Below, one piece after another: positions 34-10,958 of a stretch of 13,290 nucleotides of DNA (its first letter is position 1; every line of letters begins with the position of its first letter). The position numbers and the translations under genes are program-made. The stretch comes from Rickettsiales bacterium (GTDB lineage: Bacteria; Pseudomonadota; Alphaproteobacteria; TMED127), in NCBI GenBank assembly GCA_002690875.1, contig NZGH01000005.1, forward strand, positions 1 to 13,290. The letters run 5' to 3'. Below the pieces are notes generated by a model. That model saw nothing but the letters and a program-made list of their open reading frames with translations. It ran no database searches and was not told where the DNA came from.

Positions 34-873
34 ATGAATTGGATAACAAATTTTGTAAGACCTAAACTTCAGGCCTTCGTAGGAAAAAAAGAAGTTCCTG
101 AAAACCTATGGGAAACCTGTCCAAAATGCTCTCAAATGCTTTTAAAAAGGGAGTTAGAAAATAATCTTTATGTATGTAAACATTGTGATTATCACTTCAG
201 AATTAGTGCAAAAAAGAGATTTGAACTTTTATTTGGTAGTAATTACATTCAAATGGAAACACCGAAAATAAAACCTGATCCTTTAAAATTTAAAGATAGC
301 AAAAAATACGCAGATAGGCTTAAAGACGCTCAAAAAAAAAATAGTACCAATGATTCTGTAATGGTAGCCTCAGGGACATTAGGTTCAGTTAAATTAACAG
401 CGGCTATATTTGATTTTAATTTTCTTGGAGGTTCAATGGGTATGGCTGCTGGTGAAGCTATTATAGCAGCTTGTGAACACTCCTTAAAAAATAAAATGCC
501 TCTAGTAATTTTTAGTTCATCGGGTGGTGCAAGAATGCAGGAAGGAATTTTATCTTTAATGCAAATGCCAAGAACTGTTATAGCTGTTAATTCCCTTGCC
601 AAAAGTAATCTACCCTTTATATCTGTTCTAACAGACCCTACAACTGGCGGAGTTTCAGCGTCATTTGCAATGTTGGGAGATATAATAATTGCTGAAAAAG
701 ACGCAACTATTGGATTTGCTGGAAGCAGAGTTATTGAAGAAACTATCAAAGAAAAACTTCCGCAAAATTTCCAAAAGTCTGAGTATTTAATTGAAAAAGG
801 GATGATCGACATAGTGGTTCACAGAAGAGATCTCAACCAGAAGGTTCTAAACATTTTAGAGTTTTTACTTTAA
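34..873 (+). CDS. accD: Acetyl-CoA carboxylase carboxyltransferase subunit beta
   Basis: AccD pairs with AccA to move the carboxyl group from carboxybiotin to acetyl-CoA, giving malonyl-CoA, the committed step of fatty-acid synthesis in the cytoplasm. The 279-residue product has the N-terminal zinc ribbon of the family (Cys29, Cys32, Cys48, Cys51). The crotonase-fold core follows, with the glycine-rich stretches FLGGSMG, SSSGGARMQEG and DPTTGGVSASFAMLGD that form the acyl-CoA and oxyanion-hole regions. The length is normal and the typical MNWI start supports the ATG at 34. folC starts 14 bases after the stop on the same strand, the accD-folC pairing usual in proteobacteria, so the two are probably co-transcribed. 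No clear Shine-Dalgarno sequence precedes the start. Identification is firm. Confidence 0.97.
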   Translation: MNWITNFVRPKLQAFVGKKEVPENLWETCPKCSQMLLKRELENNLYVCKHCDYHFRISAKKRFELLFGSNYIQMETPKIKPDPLKFKDSKKYADRLKDAQKKNSTNDSVMVASGTLGSVKLTAAIFDFNFLGGSMGMAAGEAIIAACEHSLKNKMPLVIFSSSGGARMQEGILSLMQMPRTVIAVNSLAKSNLPFISVLTDPTTGGVSASFAMLGDIIIAEKDATIGFAGSRVIEETIKEKLPQNFQKSEYLIEKGMIDIVVHRRDLNQKVLNILEFLL

Positions 874-887
874 TCTAAGTTCATAAA

Positions 888-2189
888 GTGAATAAATCGA
901 GTAATATACTTAAAAGATTAGAACTTCTTCATCCGAAAAAAATTGATTTATCTTTAGATAGACTTAGAAAGCTTCTTAGAAAATTAGATAACCCTCATCT
1001 AAAATTACCTCCCGTAATCCATGTTGCAGGAACAAATGGTAAAGGTTCAGTAATTTCATATTTACGTTCGATATACGAAAAAAATGGGAAAAAGGTTCAT
1101 ACTTACACATCTCCTCATCTAATAAGATTTAATGAAAGAATAAGGATTAATTCTACTTTAGTGAATAATAAATACTTAAGTTCACTTCTTGAGGAGTGTG
1201 AGGATAAAAATAATGGACAGTCTATTACTTTTTTTGAGATTACTACTGCGGCTGCATTTCTTGCTTTTTCAAGAATTGATTCTGACCTCGTCTTATTAGA
1301 AACCGGTTTAGGAGGAAAATATGATGCCACTAATATAATAGAAAACTCATTATGTTCAATATTAACGCCAATTTCGATGGATCATATGAATTTTTTAGGG
1401 ACAAATTTACTTAAAATTGCGAATGAAAAAGTTGGAATTCTTAAAAAAAAATCAATTATCGTATTATCAAAACAAAAAAAATCTATTCGCCAATTTATTA
1501 GAAATGAAGCTAAAAAAAAAAAAGCTTCCCTATTTGAAGAAGGAATTAACTGGAAAATAGTTAAAATACTTAAAAATAGTTTTATATTAAATTTTTGTGG
1601 CAGTAATTATGAATTTAAAAGACCAAGCCTTCATGGAAACCATCAAATTGAGAATGCATCTACTGCCTTAGCAAGCGTGCTAGCTATAAAAAAATTTAAA
1701 CTAGATATGAATAAGATAAATCAAGGAGTAAAAAGTACAATGTGGCCAGGTAGAATGCAAAATTTAAATAACGGAAAGTTAAAAAAAATCGTAGGGAAAA
1801 ATTTTGACATTTGGTTAGATGGTGGGCATAACGTACATGCAAGTGAGGTTTTATTTACAGAAATTAATAAATGGAAAAATTCAAAAATAGTTCTAATTTT
1901 AGGTATGGTTTCTGGAAAAGATCCGGTAAAGTTTTTAAAAAACATTGTTAATAAAATATCGCTTCTTATTTTACTTCCAATTGATGATCATCAGTATATA
2001 CAACCTTATGTAATTAAAGAAAGTTTGAATAAAAGTCTTAAGGGTTTTTCTGCAATTGAAACATGCGTGAATCTTGATGAGGCTCTCAGATTAATTTTAA
2101 GTAGGTTTAAAAAAGGAAAAATTTTAGTTTGTGGGTCCTTATATCTTGCGGGACAGGTTTTGAAAAATGATGGGTTTAAAATAAGCTAG
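888..2189 (+). CDS. folC: Bifunctional dihydrofolate/folylpolyglutamate synthase
   Basis: FolC adds glutamate to dihydropteroate to make dihydrofolate and then lengthens the polyglutamate tail of folates, using ATP in the cytoplasm. The 433-residue protein belongs to the Mur-ligase superfamily. The ATP-binding loop HVAGTNGKGS lies at about 45-54, followed by the folate-binding region with TSPHLIRFNERI. The central block contains LVLLETGLGGKYDATN and ISMDHMNFLG, and the C-terminal Mur-ligase domain has WPGRMQ and DGGHN. The start codon is GTG at 888; no better start lies between it and the accD stop. An A12 tract at 1512-1523 encodes consecutive lysines and keeps the frame. folC ends two bases short of the end of trxA, which is on the opposite strand, and I see no hairpin terminator between them. 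Confidence 0.95.
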   Translation: MNKSSNILKRLELLHPKKIDLSLDRLRKLLRKLDNPHLKLPPVIHVAGTNGKGSVISYLRSIYEKNGKKVHTYTSPHLIRFNERIRINSTLVNNKYLSSLLEECEDKNNGQSITFFEITTAAAFLAFSRIDSDLVLLETGLGGKYDATNIIENSLCSILTPISMDHMNFLGTNLLKIANEKVGILKKKSIIVLSKQKKSIRQFIRNEAKKKKASLFEEGINWKIVKILKNSFILNFCGSNYEFKRPSLHGNHQIENASTALASVLAIKKFKLDMNKINQGVKSTMWPGRMQNLNNGKLKKIVGKNFDIWLDGGHNVHASEVLFTEINKWKNSKIVLILGMVSGKDPVKFLKNIVNKISLLILLPIDDHQYIQPYVIKESLNKSLKGFSAIETCVNLDEALRLILSRFKKGKILVCGSLYLAGQVLKNDGFKIS

Positions 2190-2533: not shown

Positions 2534-4003
2534 TTATCCAAATAATTTTTTTGACAAATTAGAATCAAATCTCATTGGCTTTGGATTATGTTGTTTATAA
2601 TAATCATTTAAAAAATTTATGTAAATATTATATTGATTTAATTGAGTAGATAAGCTTATATTGTTACCTTCCTCCTCGATCTCCAAACTTATTGTATCAG
2701 CCTCTTCCATTGCACCAGGAAGTGTCAAAAAACTTTTTTTTTCTAGTGAGAAAATTCTTTCAGAAACTTTTTTATGCAAATGTCTAAAAACTTTTTTTGG
2801 GAGTGATTCAGGAAAATTTCTGAAGATATGTTTAGCGGCAAAAAATCTTAGTCTAGGGTCTTTAAATTTTTCAGCAAAGTTCCATTTTGAATCCCAAGGT
2901 TCACTATGAAAGTGTTTCATTAGTAATGAATCATTATAATTTAAATTTTGTGAATATATCGTACTTTCTTCTAATTGAATCTCCTGACTTTGATTATCTA
3001 AATACTCCATGGATTCCCTTTGAAGAATATTTTCTAAATTTTTCAAAAAATTTTTATCATCAAGTTGACTACATTTGTGACTAATTTCATCATTAGTTAA
3101 ATTAGAATAAGGTTTAAATTTTAGTGCATATGATTTATCTAAAACGTTAGGTTGCTTATTTAATTTTATTTTTCTAAAGAAACTCTTCTTTTTATATTCT
3201 TCTCTCAATTCTGACTCAGATAATTTAACTATTTCATCAACCTCATATTTCAAGTCAAAGCCGATAAACTGGTTTTTATAAGATGGATGCTTAATCAGTT
3301 TTTTAACAAGATATATTTTGTGATTATTAAACAAATAATTATGTAATGTAAACAAGTCATTCTGGTGAATACTTTCCTCAACATTTTTCGATGAAGAATT
3401 ATTAAAAAATATTCTAAATAAATCACTTCTTTTTTTTTTAAGTAAACACATTAGTTGCATTGTAACTTCGACATCTGCAATTGCCTCATGTGAATTTGAC
3501 GAATCAAAGTTATTGGCTTTTGCTAACCTCTCTAGTTTAAATGATAGTTTCCCTTCTTCGTTTCTAGGTACTTTTACACTATTCTTATCAAGGGCATGAA
3601 CCATAGTCACAAAATTAAGTGCATCTCCTCTTGTATTTCCCTTGGTATTGGATATGTAAGGAAAAAAAAAGTGTTCCCACAATAATTGTCTGAGGAACTC
3701 TTCATCAAAGTTAATTGAATTGAAACCAATAAAAAAACATTTCTCATATTTTGACAAAAATTTTTCAATTGCAAGAGTCATTTGATAAGTAGTCAAATCT
3801 TCTGACAAGACTTGAGACATTGTCAGTCTATTTACTCTTAGAGCTTGGATAGAAGGGATTATATCGGGATTAAGTCTTGATTTAATATTTAATCTGTCTA
3901 TTTCTTTAAAATAACTATCATAGACAATAAATCCTGCCTGTAAAATTTGATCAAATCGTGCTGACCTTCCTGTTGTTTCAAAATCAAAAACTATAAAATT
4001 CAT
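2534..4003 (-). CDS. sbcB: Exodeoxyribonuclease I (SbcB family)
   Basis: Exonuclease I digests single-stranded DNA from the 3' end and acts in recombination and mismatch repair. The 489-residue protein is close to the E. coli enzyme in length (about 475). It starts with the DEDDh exonuclease domain: Exo I motif FDFETTG with Asp7 and Glu9, Exo II motif FNSINFDEEFLR with Asp100, and Exo III motif HEAIAD with His172 and Asp177. The pair LNPDIIPSIQALRVNRL also matches the family. The C-terminal half includes LRFFAAKHIFRNFPESL, as in the ExoI C-terminal domain, which separates it from shorter DnaQ-type proofreaders. Its ATG overlaps the murU TGA by four bases, so it is probably translationally coupled. 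I recall addB-addA at this position in many alphaproteobacteria, which makes sbcB here unusual. Confidence 0.9.
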   Translation of the reverse strand: MNFIVFDFETTGRSARFDQILQAGFIVYDSYFKEIDRLNIKSRLNPDIIPSIQALRVNRLTMSQVLSEDLTTYQMTLAIEKFLSKYEKCFFIGFNSINFDEEFLRQLLWEHFFFPYISNTKGNTRGDALNFVTMVHALDKNSVKVPRNEEGKLSFKLERLAKANNFDSSNSHEAIADVEVTMQLMCLLKKKRSDLFRIFFNNSSSKNVEESIHQNDLFTLHNYLFNNHKIYLVKKLIKHPSYKNQFIGFDLKYEVDEIVKLSESELREEYKKKSFFRKIKLNKQPNVLDKSYALKFKPYSNLTNDEISHKCSQLDDKNFLKNLENILQRESMEYLDNQSQEIQLEESTIYSQNLNYNDSLLMKHFHSEPWDSKWNFAEKFKDPRLRFFAAKHIFRNFPESLPKKVFRHLHKKVSERIFSLEKKSFLTLPGAMEEADTISLEIEEEGNNISLSTQLNQYNIYINFLNDYYKQHNPKPMRFDSNLSKKLFG

Positions 4004-4718
4004 ATCTGTAGATTATTTATATTTTTTAAATCATCTGGCTCGCTAATATGATACCATTCATTTTTATCATTAATTCCATAAACTTTATTTTTAATATTTG
4101 AAAAAAATATATCCCTCATAGAGAATTTTTTTTCTTTTTTTTTTTTTAGTAATTTGGGTTTTACCAACTGAAGCCCTGAAAAAACGAAATCTTTTTGTGG
4201 TTTTAAACTAATTCTTGAAATCTCTTTTTGAGGTTCATTCAAATTAAAATCTCCTTTCCCTCTATAACCAAAAAATTTTTTTTTTTTATCAAACATAATA
4301 ATAAATCCATTTTTTCATACTTCCAGTTTCTTAAAATATTTTCTATGGGAGATAGAGAGGAAGAGGAGGTTCTCCACAAAACATCTCCATTAATTAAAAC
4401 TTTTGGGCTGTTCAAATTATTAAAATAATCTTTGTTTATTGCATTTAAAAAGCCACCACCCGTATCCAAAATTTTTTCCTCAAAAATAATTTTTACTTTT
4501 TTTGAATAAGGTTTTAATTCATCATAAAATTTCTCTGACAAATGGTGAGTATTAATAACGATATTTTTGAAATTCAAATTTAATAAATCCTCAATAATAT
4601 AACAAATTATTGGTTTACCATTCACTTTCAATAACGGCTTCGGTACTTTCTTGGTGAGTGGATACATTCTTTTACCAAATCCAGCCGCAAAAATCATTGC
4701 TTCGTTAATGTCTGACAT
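4000..4718 (-). CDS. murU: MurNAc-1-phosphate uridylyltransferase (MurU-like), frame broken at a poly-A tract
   Basis: This is a nucleotidyltransferase of the NTP_transferase family that would join MurNAc-1-phosphate and UTP into UDP-MurNAc, the last step of the recycling route that bypasses MurA/MurB. The first frame (4718 to 4239) has the nucleotide-binding signature GFGKRMYPLT (residues 13-22), PKPLL, NTHHL, LDTGGG and the metal-binding NGDVL (110-114). The family's C-terminal part (GDFNL, FVFSGLQLV, KFSMRD, YGINDKNEWYHISEPDDL) lies in another frame, 4296 to 4000. The frames meet at the A12 tract at 4276-4287. Ten or 13 A's would give one protein of 238-239 residues, the normal size. The start overlaps the end of amgK by 14 bases. 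Function is inferred from the AmgK partner; substrates of such small transferases are hard to tell from sequence alone. Confidence 0.82.
4276..4287 (-). repeat. Poly-A tract (A12 on the minus strand) at the murU frame break
   Basis: Twelve consecutive A residues in the coding strand are followed by six T. The upstream frame enters as TTG ATA AAA and continues out of frame, while the conserved C-terminus needs one base more or two fewer. A second tract of 13 at 4135-4147 in the same gene is in frame. Confidence 0.85.
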
Positions 4719-5661
4719 GTTTTAATAAAGGTGATAATAATAAATTAAAATTTTCAAACTCTTTTTTCTGTAAGTTTTTATATAGCATATTTTCTACTCT
4801 TGGAAGATGTTGTAAATATTGATCTTTATTATCTCTTTTAGATAGTCTACAAAATATTCCTAATACTTTCATGTGACGTTGCATAGCAAGTAAGTTATAA
4901 GAAAGTATAAAATCTTCTTTTTTGACTTTTATATTTTCTTTTAAAAAATAATTAACTAACTCTTGTTCTAGTTGCTTTGGAACATCAATTCTTGCATCTT
5001 GCATGAGTGAGACTAGATCGTAAGCACAAGGACCAATAACTGCATCTTGATAATCAATTAGCCCACACCTAATATTTTTAGACTTTACTATATAAAATAG
5101 ATTATCTATATGAAAATCTCTATGAACAAAAACTTGAGGCGTCTTGTCAAGGAGGGAAAAGTAAGATTCAAATAATAAATTAAATTTTTTTTTTAATAAA
5201 TTTGTTTCTTTTCTATTTATATAGTTTAAATACCAATCAAAAAAGAGATTACTTTCTTCTATGAACATTTTTAATGAGTATTTCGGTAAATCTGGGTTCC
5301 TAATTTTTTGTATATCAAAAATTGTATCTACAGCTAATCTATAAATTTTTTTTCTATTTTTTTTAGTTACTATCTCTGCATATTTGGTTGGACCAAAATT
5401 TTCTATAACTAAAATACTTTGCTTGCTAAAGTCATAAATTATTGACGGAACAACAGCAAATTTTTTAAGTATCTTAGTGACTTTAATATAATCTTTTAGA
5501 TTTTTTTCATCATTGTCAAACATAATTACATAATTTTTTTTTGATGAAAAATACTCAAAGTATTTTCTATTAGAGGCGTCACCAGCCAATAATGATATTT
5601 TTTTAAAATCTATTTTATTAGCTTCCAAAGTTTTTTTTATTTTTGATCTAATTTCTTCCAC
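4705..5661 (-). CDS. amgK: Anomeric MurNAc/GlcNAc kinase (AmgK-like phosphotransferase)
   Basis: AmgK phosphorylates MurNAc (and GlcNAc) at the anomeric carbon, giving the substrate of MurU. The 318-residue protein has an aminoglycoside-phosphotransferase/choline-kinase fold. LLAGDASNRKYF (24-35) is the N-terminal motif of this subfamily, the catalytic loop is HRDFHIDN (180-187), and the metal-binding DYQDA starts at Asp203, followed by GPCAYDLVSLMQDARID. The start is GTG at 5661, with AAAGAG five bases upstream inside the end of tsaE. The tsaE and amgK reading frames overlap by 25 bases, and the murU start overlaps the amgK end. The tsaE-amgK-murU order is widespread in proteobacteria. A T10 tract (5185-5194) stays in frame. 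Assignment as a sugar kinase rests on the motif pattern plus the MurU neighbour. Confidence 0.88.
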   Translation of the reverse strand: MEEIRSKIKKTLEANKIDFKKISLLAGDASNRKYFEYFSSKKNYVIMFDNDEKNLKDYIKVTKILKKFAVVPSIIYDFSKQSILVIENFGPTKYAEIVTKKNRKKIYRLAVDTIFDIQKIRNPDLPKYSLKMFIEESNLFFDWYLNYINRKETNLLKKKFNLLFESYFSLLDKTPQVFVHRDFHIDNLFYIVKSKNIRCGLIDYQDAVIGPCAYDLVSLMQDARIDVPKQLEQELVNYFLKENIKVKKEDFILSYNLLAMQRHMKVLGIFCRLSKRDNKDQYLQHLPRVENMLYKNLQKKEFENFNLLLSPLLKHVRH

Positions 5662-6114
5662 AGCTTCTCTTTAATACTTTGTAAAGTTCCAAATAATTTT
5701 ATTCTCACATCTCTTGCATTATTTTTTTCATCTTCAAAAAATATTTCTATTCTATCTTTGGGAAAGTAGTCTGAAAAAATATCAGGCCATTCAACAATTA
5801 CACAATTACCAACGGCTGAATCAAAATCAAGATTAAAAAATTCTTTTTTTTTTTCTATTCTGTATAAATCATAGTGCCATATATTAATTGTTTTGAGATC
5901 ATAAATCTGAACTATTGGAAATGTTGGGCTTGGTACTTTAATTTTTTTTTTTTGAAAATTGATTAATTAAAAACCTTGCAAACGTTGTTTTACCTGAACC
6001 AATATCTCCACTCAAGCACATAAAAAAAGGAGCTGAGAGAAATTTAGAAACTTTCTGAGCCAAAATTTTTGTTTCATTTAAATTTTTAATTCTAATATAT
6101 AATTCAGGTGTCAT
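5637..6114 (-). CDS. tsaE: tRNA t6A biosynthesis ATPase TsaE, frame broken at a poly-A tract
   Basis: TsaE is the ATPase that works with TsaB and TsaD to put threonylcarbamoyl on A37 of ANN-decoding tRNAs. Reading from ATG at 6114 gives MTPELYIRIKN and then the P-loop LSGDIGSGKTTFARFL, but the frame meets TAA just after the A12 tract at 5942-5953. With one A fewer, the reading continues with VPSPTFPIVQIYD (the family's SPTF motif), WHYDLYRI, and CVIVEWPDIF (the conserved EWP/EWG region), ending at TAA 5637-5639. The repaired protein is 158 residues, the usual TsaE size. The function is generally essential in bacteria, so a dead gene would be surprising unless a second copy exists. It is the first gene of the leftward operon and overlaps amgK. 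Confidence 0.88.
5942..5953 (-). repeat. Poly-A tract (A12 on the minus strand) at the tsaE frame break
   Basis: Twelve A residues lie in the coding strand between the P-loop and the SPTF motif of TsaE. Eleven would keep the frame (TCA, three AAA codons, ATT); twelve leads to AAT TAA. A second tract of 11 in the same gene (5844-5854) is in frame. Confidence 0.85.
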
Positions 6115-6120
6115 TTTTTT

Positions 6121-6151
6121 TTGGAAATAAATTATTATCTTAACTTATACT
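6121..6151 (+). promoter_or_regulatory. Candidate promoter of the ferredoxin-NADP reductase gene
   Basis: TTGGAA (6121-6126) and TATACT (6146-6151) are separated by 19 bases, and the expected start point would be near 6158, about 18 bases before the ATG at 6176. The -10 match is good, while the spacer is longer than ideal. It overlaps the oppositely oriented tsaE promoter, so the two could compete. Confidence 0.35.
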
Positions 6152-6162
6152 ATTGTATTCAA
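6134..6162 (-). promoter_or_regulatory. Candidate sigma-70-type promoter of the tsaE operon
   Basis: On the minus strand TTGAAT (6162-6157) is followed after 17 bases by GATAAT (6139-6134). That is four and five matches to the -35 and -10 consensus at ideal spacing. Transcription would begin near 6127, leaving a leader of only about 13 bases before the tsaE ATG at 6114. AT-rich DNA gives chance matches, so this is moderately supported. Confidence 0.45.
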
Positions 6163-6171
6163 TATATTGAA
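6158..6171. promoter_or_regulatory. 14-bp perfect palindrome, possible operator
   Basis: TTCAATATATTGAA reads the same on both strands. It overlaps the likely -35 element of the tsaE promoter and the expected transcription start of the reductase, a position from which a dimeric regulator could control both. Palindromes of this length are expected about once or twice by chance in 13 kb of such AT-rich DNA, so only its location makes it notable. Confidence 0.3.
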
Positions 6172-6175
6172 CGAA

Positions 6176-7184
6176 ATGAAAAAAATTAATACTGATGTTT
6201 TAATAGTTGGTGCTGGTCCAGTTGGTTTATTTTCAGTTTTTGAATTAGGTCAACTAGGAATTAAATCCTGTGTCGTAGACTGTCTTAACGAAATAGGTGG
6301 ACAATGCTCAGCACTTTACCCTGAGAAGCCTATTTATGATATCCCTGCTTATCCAGTTATCAATGCTCAAGAATTAATTTTAAATTTAAATAAACAAATA
6401 AAACCATTTAACCCTAGTGTTCTTCTAAGTCAGCAAGTTGAAAAAATTATTGACCTTGATAACTCATTCAAAGTATTCACTTCTAGTAATACTGAAATAT
6501 CTACAAAGTGTATATTCATTGCCGCCGGAAATGGTGCATTTGGACCAAACAAACCTCCAATAAGAAATATTGAGAAATTTGAAAATAAATCAGTCTTTTA
6601 CAGTATCAAAAATAAATCAATTTTTGACAATAAAACAGTTGCTATTGCTGGTGGCGGTGACTCAGCAGTCGACTGGGCAATTGAGCTATCCAAGAATGCA
6701 AAAAAAATATTTTTCATTCACAGAAGGCAAAAACTTAGAGCTTCTCCTAAAAACGTTGAAGTACTTAAAAATTTGGAAAAAAAAAAATGTTGAATTTATT
6801 ATTCCTTTTCAATTAGATTCAATTAATGGAACAAACGGAATAATTTCTGAATTAACTTTAAAAGACTTAGACAATAATATTAAAAAAATTAATACAGACT
6901 TTTTTCTTCCTTTTTTTGGACTCTCAAATGATTTGGGTCCAATTAAAAACTGGGAATTAGAAATAGAGAAAAATATTTTAAAAGTAGATCAGGCCACATG
7001 CAAAACTTCTAAAGATAGAATATATGCAATTGGTGATATTTGTACTTATGCTGGAAAACTTAAACTTATTCTGACCGGTTTTTCTGAAGCTGCCATAGCA
7101 GCTCACGATTGTTACAAAACCATATATCCGGAAAAAGTTTTACATTTCGAGTATTCAACAACAAAAGGAATTAATAAAATTTAG
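6176..7184 (+). CDS. Thioredoxin-reductase-like ferredoxin/flavodoxin-NADP(+) reductase, frame broken at a poly-A tract
   Basis: This FAD enzyme of the YumC-type class passes electrons between NADPH and ferredoxin or flavodoxin. The N-terminal FAD loop VGAGPVG (about 11-17) and the IGGQCSALYPEKPIYDIPAYP block are diagnostic of this group. The NADP domain carries AGGGDSAVDWA (158-168), where thioredoxin reductase would have CxxC upstream, and HRR (182-184) for the NADPH phosphate. The C-terminal FAD motif YAIGDICTY and ILTGFSEAAIAAHDCY lie in a second frame. The frames meet at A11 (6777-6787); ten A's restore a 335-residue protein, the normal size. I prefer the ATG at 6176 over a TTG at 6167 in the same frame, because MKKINTDVLIVG matches the family start. 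The gene is divergent from tsaE and its stop lies four bases from that of ahcY. Confidence 0.88.
6777..6787 (+). repeat. Poly-A tract (A11) at the reductase frame break
   Basis: Eleven A residues lead the upstream frame into TGT TGA at 6788-6793. Removing one A joins it to AAT GTT GAA TTT, which encodes NVEF at the expected place in the NADP-binding domain. The break is about residue 203 of 335. Confidence 0.85.
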
Positions 7185-8490: not shown

Positions 8491-10554
8491 TTAAGATTTA
8501 TTTAATTCATCGTATATTTTGTCATAATATACTTTTAATTTATTTTTAATCAGCAAATTATCATGTTCCTTAAAAATTTCACTACAAATTTTAGAAACTT
8601 CTTTAGAATTAATTTTTGTGATAAATTGCTTTACTTTTAAAATTCTTGAAATACTCATTGATAGTGTTTTTATACCCATTCCTAATAGTAAAGAAGTGAA
8701 CATTGTATCACCTGCCATTTCACCACAAACACTTAATGGCACTCCAACCTTTTTTGCAGAATCTGATGACAATTTAATTAATCTGAGTACAGATAAGTGA
8801 GCTGGGTCATAAATTTTTGCTACCTCTTCATCTCCTCTATCAATTGCAAGAGTGTACATTGTAAGGTCATTAGTACCAATTGCTAGAAAGTCGCAGTTTT
8901 TAGCAAGTGATTCAGAGATCAAAGCTGCGGCTGGTGTTTCGATAAGAACACCAATTTTAATATTTTTTTTATTAAAATCTTTTTTTTTTAATAACAGTTC
9001 TTTTGAAACATCATGTATCAACTTTTTTGCTTCTAATATTTCAGAAACATTAGAAACCATTGGTAACATTATTCTAATTTTGCCGAACTTACTTGCTCTT
9101 AAAATCGCAGAGATTTGCCTTTTAAATATTTTGGGGAAAGCTAAAGTAAGTCTAATAGCTCTTAACCCTAACGCAGGATTTGGAGATTTTGCCAAAAACT
9201 TTTCAATAAAAGGGACTTTTTTATCATTCCCAACATCTAAAGTTCTTATTGTCAATGGTTTGCCTTTAAGATGATTAAGGGTTTTTTTTATAAAATAAAA
9301 CTGTTCTTTTTCAGATGGCATTCTTTTTTTATCCATAAACATGTACTCACTTCTCAATAAACCAATACCATCAATACCGATCTTCATTGCTTCTTTTGCC
9401 TCATCAGAGTTATCGATATTGGCTTCAACACGAACTCTCATTTTATCAGATGTTAAAGGAATTTTTTTTCTGAGAAAATTCAATTTTTTGTCAACATTTT
9501 TTTGATCCTCAATCTTCTTTTTGTAGTAATTAATCGTTGAAACTCTTGGGTTTTTTATAAGTATTCCCTTTTCTCCATCAAGAACTATTGGCTCATTATC
9601 TTTTAAATCTTTTAAAAGATTTTTAACCCCAACTAAAGTTGGTATTGAAAGTGATCTAGCAACAATAGCAAAATGTCCTTCAGGACCTCCCATAATACTT
9701 ACTAATCCTGATAGCTTTGTTTTTGACAATGATAAAAGATCAGCAGCACTTAATTCGTTTGATATTAATATTTGATGAGCCCTAATTTGTTTTTGTTTTC
9801 TTTTCTTCTTTTGAAGATTTTCCAATATTCTTCTACATACATCTCTCACATCATCAAATCTATCTTTGAGATAATCATCTTTAATTTTCTTAAAAATTTT
9901 AGAGTGCTTATTTAATTCTTCAATTATAGCAAATTCAGCATTGATTAAATCTGAATGTACTCTTTTTTTTGCATCAGATACAAGTGATGAAGACGAAATA
10001 ATTGATATATTAGCCTCAAGCATGAATTTCATTTCGCCATAGATATCATTTTTATGGTCTTTTATTTTTTTTATAATTTTTCCTAAGTCGGAAACTGAAT
10101 TTTTTACAGCTTTATCTAATCTTTTTATTTCGTTCTTAACCTCCGAAATAGGAATATTATATTTTGAGTAAGATAAATCGCTACTTTTCTTTATCGCACA
10201 ATTTCCTATAACGAATCCATGCGACACGGCAATCCCTTTAAATATTTTTTCCTTAATCAGATTACCTGGTAATGGTTTTTCTTCTCCAAAGTTATTTTTT
10301 ATAAGATTTATTAATTTTTGAAGATCTTCCTCTGCATTTTGTCCAATACATTGTATTATTATCTCTGTCCCCTTCGATGCAGCAAGAGTCATTAGGCCTA
10401 ACAAAGATGATCCATTAACAATATTTCTACCTTTTTTAACCCAAAACTTTGATTTACACTTTGATGTAAAATCTACAAATTTTGCAGATGCTCTTGCATG
10501 AAGACCTAATTTATTTGTAATTAAGATTTTTCTCTCTAATCTTTTTTCTTGCAA
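8491..10554 (-). CDS. ptsI: HPr-Enzyme I fusion (phosphoenolpyruvate-protein phosphotransferase)
   Basis: This 687-residue protein joins two PTS components normally made separately. Residues 1 to about 92 are HPr: LGLHARAS carries the phosphoryl-accepting His19, and SSLLGLMTLAA places Ser50 exactly 31 residues later, the spacing of His15 and Ser46 in Bacillus HPr, so HprK could phosphorylate it. After a short linker (EEKPLPG), Enzyme I begins with FKGIAVSHGFVIG (105-117). The active His294 is in MGGPEGHFAIVARSLSIPTLVG. The PEP-binding barrel shows GIGLLRSEYMF, TIRTLDVG, NPALGLRAIRL, ETPAAALI, GTNDLTMYTLAIDR and the catalytic Cys610 in SVCGEMAGD. EI alone would be about 580 residues, so both halves look complete. 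There is no GAF domain as in EI-Ntr. It overlaps the EIIA gene by 19 bases and acts in a cytoplasmic regulatory PTS. Confidence 0.94.
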   Translation of the reverse strand: MQEKRLERKILITNKLGLHARASAKFVDFTSKCKSKFWVKKGRNIVNGSSLLGLMTLAASKGTEIIIQCIGQNAEEDLQKLINLIKNNFGEEKPLPGNLIKEKIFKGIAVSHGFVIGNCAIKKSSDLSYSKYNIPISEVKNEIKRLDKAVKNSVSDLGKIIKKIKDHKNDIYGEMKFMLEANISIISSSSLVSDAKKRVHSDLINAEFAIIEELNKHSKIFKKIKDDYLKDRFDDVRDVCRRILENLQKKKRKQKQIRAHQILISNELSAADLLSLSKTKLSGLVSIMGGPEGHFAIVARSLSIPTLVGVKNLLKDLKDNEPIVLDGEKGILIKNPRVSTINYYKKKIEDQKNVDKKLNFLRKKIPLTSDKMRVRVEANIDNSDEAKEAMKIGIDGIGLLRSEYMFMDKKRMPSEKEQFYFIKKTLNHLKGKPLTIRTLDVGNDKKVPFIEKFLAKSPNPALGLRAIRLTLAFPKIFKRQISAILRASKFGKIRIMLPMVSNVSEILEAKKLIHDVSKELLLKKKDFNKKNIKIGVLIETPAAALISESLAKNCDFLAIGTNDLTMYTLAIDRGDEEVAKIYDPAHLSVLRLIKLSSDSAKKVGVPLSVCGEMAGDTMFTSLLLGMGIKTLSMSISRILKVKQFITKINSKEVSKICSEIFKEHDNLLIKNKLKVYYDKIYDELNKS

Positions 10555-10958
10555 TCTTTAGACTCTCCAAAAAAAGCTGAAGCAACATTCATATACTTCC
10601 TTCCAGACTCTTGAGAAATTTTAATTAATTCTTTTATTTCACATTCATTTCTTAAAGAGGAAATTTTAATAAGCATGGGTAAATTTACACCTGCGACTAC
10701 TTCAACTTTTTCTTCTTCCATAATTGAAATTGCAAGATTCGAAGGAGTACCACCAAACATATCCGTTAAAATTACTACCCCTTTTCCTTTATTAACTTTT
10801 TTTACGGCTTTAATTATCTCTTCTCTTTTTTTTTTTATATCATCGTCTGGTAAAATTGATATAGCTAATATGTTCTCTTGCTTACCGACAATGTGTTCAA
10901 GGGCAACCAAAAACTCCTTTGAAATGTTTGAATGACCTACAATCACTATTCCAATCAT
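10536..10958 (-). CDS. PTS EIIA component, mannose (fructose/mannose) family
   Basis: This 140-residue EIIA-Man-type protein accepts phosphate from HPr. The phosphorylation site is His9 in VGHSNIS, and the conserved LTDMFGGTPSN (64-74) contains the aspartate that orients the histidine. NLPMLIK (about 97) is also characteristic. The length corresponds to the A domain only; no EIIB, EIIC or EIID partner is in the window, so a signalling role is more likely than sugar uptake, as is known for alphaproteobacterial relatives. It lies between rapZ (its ATG overlaps the rapZ TGA by four bases) and the HPr-EI gene (19-base overlap), implying co-translation with its phosphate donor. A T11 tract (10826-10836) is in frame. 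Confidence 0.93.
   Translation of the reverse strand: MIGIVIVGHSNISKEFLVALEHIVGKQENILAISILPDDDIKKKREEIIKAVKKVNKGKGVVILTDMFGGTPSNLAISIMEEEKVEVVAGVNLPMLIKISSLRNECEIKELIKISQESGRKYMNVASAFFGESKDCKKKD

Follow-up and report, generated by a model that had tools for sequence, protein, structure and literature searches.

Three genes broken at long A tracts in a TMED127 contig are probably in frame in the living cell

The window considered here is the whole analysed stretch of 13,290 bases (29.2% guanine plus cytosine, GC) of contig NZGH01000005.1. Three of its genes are each split at a long run of A on the coding strand. They are murU, tsaE and a gene for a ferredoxin-NADP/thioredoxin-reductase-like flavoprotein, called the reductase below. 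murU and tsaE lie on the minus strand and flank an intact amgK (4705..5661, minus strand). AmgK matches Pfam APH, and as the query for relatives against the genome contigs it recovered 18 loci. The nearest named relative is MED715 (locus L001, genome G001), with 80% identity in AmgK and 95% in SahH. AG-899-D02 (L002, G002) is the other closest named relative. Both have the window's gene order, MED715 over its whole length.

The upstream piece of murU is an open reading frame (ORF) of 159 amino acids (aa) at 4239..4718, which ends in an out-of-frame tail past the tract. The downstream piece is a 98 aa ORF at 4000..4296. The break falls at an A12 tract (4276..4287); at the homologous place G001 has A13 and G002 has A14, and both keep the frame. 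The upstream piece matches Pfam NTP_transferase. MurU and AmgK are the best NCBIfam resemblances of the respective proteins, with scores under the curated cut-offs. The upstream piece of tsaE is a 58 aa ORF (5938..6114) with a weak match to the TsaE model, whose cut-off the full-length TsaE of L002 exceeds. Its downstream open frame, seen in translation, has approximate limits of 5655..5953. The break is at a second A12 (5942..5953), where G001 has an A11 and G002 a run interrupted by a G, in frame in both. The reductase lies on the plus strand. Its upstream piece (6176..6793) and its downstream open frame (6770..7184) meet at an A11 (6777..6787), where G001 has an A10 and G002 a run interrupted by a C, again in frame in both.

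The original prediction held that these genes are split exactly at A12, A12 and A11, and ORF lists, translations and frameshift-aware alignment all agree. Aligned in this way with intact proteins of three relatives, each gene has one break, at the tract, against all three (3/3), and the window has no other break. Breaks are confined to the longest tracts. None of the 65 coding tracts of A6-9 is broken, nor any of the 4 A10 tracts; the count is 3/11 for tracts of at least 10 and 3/7 for tracts of at least 11. The number of tracts itself is near the prediction from codon use (8 observed and 7.4 expected for A of at least 10 in ORFs of at least 120 aa). The surprise in the window is the break rate, not the tract number.

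The comparison with related genomes that had been suggested as a check gives the same answer for every gene. Among 27 relative loci murU is broken in 0/26 (one locus ends before the gene), tsaE in 0/27 and the reductase in 0/25 of those that extend to the tract position. They are unbroken in 26/26, 27/27 and 25/25 loci, so no break of the window is common to any relative examined. The closest of the environmental matches listed are mostly full length too; among them the nearest MurU is complete (91%), as are the nearest reductases (94-95%).

The breaks could be true recent nulls, or mark pseudogenes, in a genome that is decaying or has a mutator phenotype. Long tracts are generally hypermutable, which speaks for this idea. 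However, it requires three nulls within 2.5 kb, one of them in tsaE, while the rest of the window is unbroken. There is also no relaxation in the broken genes. In identities across four genomes the downstream pieces differ from relatives by +2.9, -4.7 and -2.8 points, and the other genes range from -5.4 to +3.1. The downstream pieces differ about like other genes and there is no sign of relaxed constraint after the breaks. Pseudogene decay was rejected on these identities, since the broken genes of the window have not changed more than expected from the others. A mutator is not favored by the nearest draft genomes either, since MutL (PF08676) is found in 19/20 and MutS (PF00488) in 13/20. We consider true nulls very improbable.

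A wider survey covers about 2.56 Mb from nine related genomes, with proteins aligned across genomes in a frameshift-aware manner. Three assemblies with unsorted contigs resemble metagenome-assembled genomes (MAG-like): G001, which is the MAG MED715, G025 and G016. Six with length-sorted contigs resemble single-amplified genomes (SAG-like): G002 (AG-899-D02), G005, G012, G007, G029 and G006. Broken coding A tracts of at least 10 number 9/160, 9/90 and 3/32 in the MAG-like genomes and 0/138, 0/101, 0/20, 0/11, 0/1 and 0/15 in the SAG-like genomes, in the orders just given. Pooled, this is 21/282 versus 0/286 (p 3e-7). The two records classified by name, G001 and G002, give p 0.003 between them. 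The MAG-like rate rises with length, from 3/141 at A10 through 4/66 at A11 and 5/34 at A12 to 9/41 at 13 or more, whereas SAG-like tracts of at least 13 are in frame in 34/34 cases. As a control, A6-9 tracts are broken in 4/3368 MAG-like versus 8/3878 SAG-like cases. Frameshift calls off A runs are not enriched in the MAG-like genomes either (10 vs 23). The pattern cuts across kinship: G001 groups with G002 and G005, and G025 is the sister of G012. The breaks track tract length and assembly type and not lineage, as homopolymer errors should. Those of G001 fall in core genes (pheS, ribF, clpA, rplY, ccmE, aroC, the pgi-like gene and the NAD(P)H-hydrate-enzyme gene), and it is implausible that these are nulls.

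Two candidates were excluded from the SAG-like 0/286. One is an A12 in G002, where the upstream frame ends before the tract. The other, an A10 in G005, lies at the edge of a contig; the frameshift call is 17 bases away and falls within the first 13 residues of an alignment of 61 residues. With both scored as broken the pooled contrast still has p 2e-5. An earlier method based on tblastn pieces found 2/3 of the window breaks (it missed murU) and scored the G002 A12 as broken; it was replaced by the frameshift-aware alignment.

We argue that cells most likely carry murU, tsaE and the reductase gene in frame, and that the breaks in the contig are tract-length errors of reads or assembly. We give this a probability of about 85%. 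The window is a contig from a metagenome and belongs to a free-living bacterium of TMED127 whose genes are very rich in long coding A tracts. The three genes would be in frame in the organism, and the A counts of the contig's longest tracts would be wrong through a miscount in the reads or in the population assembly. Such a miscount might reflect stutter or homopolymer error affecting a single molecule, or a consensus built from reads of unequal tract length. The original prediction left two explanations standing, miscalls (or polymorphism) and rescue by slippage of RNA polymerase. The first is favored because breaks at A of at least 10 are frequent in MAG-like genomes and absent from SAG-like ones, and because the relatives are unbroken. 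Among environmental clusters with a longest contig above 40 kb, shortened MurU is found in 6/7 and shortened reductase in 5/19, with 120 clusters listed for each protein, which also speaks for miscalls. If the breaks were tolerated alleles, single-cell-style genomes should show a similar rate, yet they do not. The window itself, with 3/11, differs from the SAG-like 0/286 by Fisher's test (p 4e-5), and we infer that its contig shares the error of the MAG-like assemblies.

Errors of 454 or older nanopore sequencing would also affect tracts of 6-10. These are untouched in the window (0/69), so such error was set aside as the sole cause. The breaks resemble the homopolymer indel errors of metagenome and long-read assemblies dealt with in passages of PMC9262707, in that they are single-base changes, sit only in the longest tracts and split genes. 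Those passages regard homopolymers of at least 10 as probably still problematic in nanopore consensus. Such breaks are frequent in MED715 as well.

It must be noted that several points weigh against a simple miscall. Only G001 and G002 are labelled by record names, and the other genomes were assigned by contig ordering, which for G006, G007, G012 and G029 rests on 3-4 contigs each. That the AG- code denotes a SAG follows the usage for AG-892-F10 in a passage of PMC12542740. The contrast between the sisters G025 (9/90) and G012 (0/20) does not reach significance on its own (p 0.15). The window rate is above the MAG-like average (3/11 vs 21/282, p 0.05; p 0.019 for A11-12), and at A of at least 11 it is 3/7 vs 18/141. 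General MAG error does not fully cover the window rate, and therefore low coverage or a more homopolymer-error-prone platform may apply. The SAG-like G002 has a frame break upstream of its A12, beside an A8 (contig C6, about 2598-2644, locus L106); most other SAG-like calls are near alignment ends or distant from long tracts. Shortened MurU proteins are found on short contigs too, as well as in large clusters such as P0217 with its 22 members, and these could be real alleles. Finally, the verdict on the window contig is inferential.

Real alleles are the substance of the other explanation. In it replication slippage changes tract length, and RNA polymerase slippage on A11-A12 restores part of the full-length MurU, TsaE and reductase, a situation known from Buchnera and Blochmannia. 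The tract lengths are within the slipping range. Slippage of the E. coli polymerase begins at runs of about 8 A, according to a passage of PMC6260861, and endosymbionts have 12-50% corrected transcripts in the part of PMC5009743 that bears on this. The lack of relaxed constraint downstream of the breaks, described above, speaks for rescue. Each broken gene has a single indel in a long A tract with the rest of the gene conserved, as a rescued gene should. Environmental assemblies add some support, since shortened MurU and reductase proteins recur at Lys runs among the matches listed. Several environmental proteins listed are shortened, about half of them at Lys runs by eye. P0217 is shortened at a Lys run, and P0198, a 120-member cluster 99% identical to it, is full length; the pair is possibly a case of segregating tract length or of recurrent error.

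The likeness to Buchnera and Blochmannia includes an AT-rich reduced genome, long coding poly-A and single breaks within tracts of conserved genes. In those insects' symbionts a number of frameshifts recur in different populations and species, and the corrected transcripts have been measured, as passages of PMC3017870 and PMC5009743 state. Here the out-of-frame length is not conserved across populations or species (relatives 0/26, 0/27 and 0/25 loci; SAG-like 0/286). The lineage of the window is unlike the symbionts in having no common break, no breaks in SAG-like genomes, a free-living habit and denser coding tracts. If the frame were nearly neutral, about 21/286 breaks would be predicted in SAG-like genomes, and 0 were found. 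Rescue would make the frame matter little, yet all 34 of the SAG-like tracts of at least 13 are in frame, and we therefore consider slippage rescue unlikely and leave it as the unsupported half of the original prediction. Slightly less probable again is the broader claim that some environmental tract breaks, including these three, are true short-lived alleles kept functional by RNA polymerase slippage, in free-living plankton with core-gene tracts of A13-17.

The insect-endosymbiont setting of the comparison does not hold for this lineage, which is free-living marine plankton. Kinship, and a gene order in common with a named member (MED715), place the window in the order TMED127, for which the name Methylaequorales has been proposed. 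Passages of PMC12542740, which cites 64 SAGs/MAGs, assign MED715 to this order and describe the order as apparently free-living, with a share of metagenomic reads from surface water that reaches about 10%. Of the 20 nearest genomes, 16 were found to have a rhodopsin gene. Because of the kinship to MED715, the TMED127 placement of the latter and the rhodopsin in relatives, the host is, as judged from sequence, free-living ocean plankton and not an insect symbiont. MED715 matches the window in gene order throughout; the passages concerned of PMC12542740 leave poly-A tracts unmentioned. Literature searches on poly-A tracts in TMED127, HIMB59 and Pelagibacter, and on transcriptional slippage in free-living organisms, gave nothing on this subject among the papers listed.

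The heavy load of long A runs in this lineage is real. In the nine genomes A/T runs of more than 10 bases number 10.0-35.0 per 100 kb; according to a passage of PMC9262707, only 18/1,598 genera exceed one such run per 100 kb. Matches to A12 (overlapping, both strands) number 146-399 per genome in 11 TMED127-like genomes vs 10-31 in 11 SAR11 genomes of similar GC. G001, G002 and G005 have 86-97 coding tracts of at least A9 per 100 kb of ORF. Blochmannia vafer has about 26 per 100 kb (153 tracts in 587 genes that average 1,006 bp), so at similar GC the three genomes have 3.3-3.7 times its coding density, though ORF sets and tract definitions differ. Shuffling of synonymous codons puts A tracts of at least 10 at 1.22-1.26 times expectation. 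The tetrapeptide KKKK occurs 0.32-0.40 times per 1000 aa vs 0.02 in SAR11 loci, which are from one homologous region and not independent. At equal Lys content and AAA share, KKKK is about 16-20 times rarer in SAR11 (loci L007-L016 and L018, one homologous region only) than in TMED127, as if long A runs were avoided there at the amino-acid level. Tract richness is not private to TMED127, being found also in G003, G004 and G062. Loss of mismatch repair was rejected as a simple rule for long tracts. No MutS_V or MutL_C match was found in 14 draft genomes, namely SAR11 G063-G073 plus G003, G004 and G062. The SAR11 genomes (11/11 without both) have few A12 runs, yet G003, G004 and G062, also without both, have many.

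If the breaks are tract-length errors, gene calls from TMED127 metagenomes will wrongly report core genes such as pheS, ribF, murU and tsaE as split or lost, and claims of pathway loss should therefore be checked with the tracts in mind. Provided that the pattern of the single-cell-style genomes holds, cells keep A13-A17 tracts of core genes in frame. Together with known polymerase slippage this would call either for an RNA polymerase that resists slipping or for cells that tolerate mixed products, which the original prediction had raised for in-frame tracts too. The choice between these bears directly on a major ocean group, for which metatranscriptomes already exist (Bermuda Atlantic Time-series Study, BATS, mapped to the SAG AG-892-F10 in PMC12542740). 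Were the breaks instead true alleles rescued by slippage, endosymbiont-style sloppiness of expression would extend to open-ocean plankton.

Eight long tracts of the window stay in frame. Seven had been listed correctly before: an A12 in folC (1512..1523, plus strand) and, on the minus strand, an A10 in an sbcB-like gene (3430..3439), an A13 in the downstream piece of murU (4135..4147), an A10 in amgK (5185..5194), an A11 in the downstream piece of tsaE (5844..5854), an A10 in ptsP (8980..8989) and an A11 in an EIIA-like gene (10826..10836). The list was short by one, an A10 in accD (332..341, plus strand). Besides murU, amgK, tsaE and the reductase, the window holds accD, folC, trx, an sbcB-like exonuclease gene, sahH, ptsP, the EIIA-like gene, rapZ, hprK and others; several of these names rest on ORF content and gene order. 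An A9 at 10-18 lies within an A-rich intergenic stretch where the contig starts. In G020 (locus L074, about 1500-2400) amgK is seemingly split, giving two separate matches, one with an internal stop.

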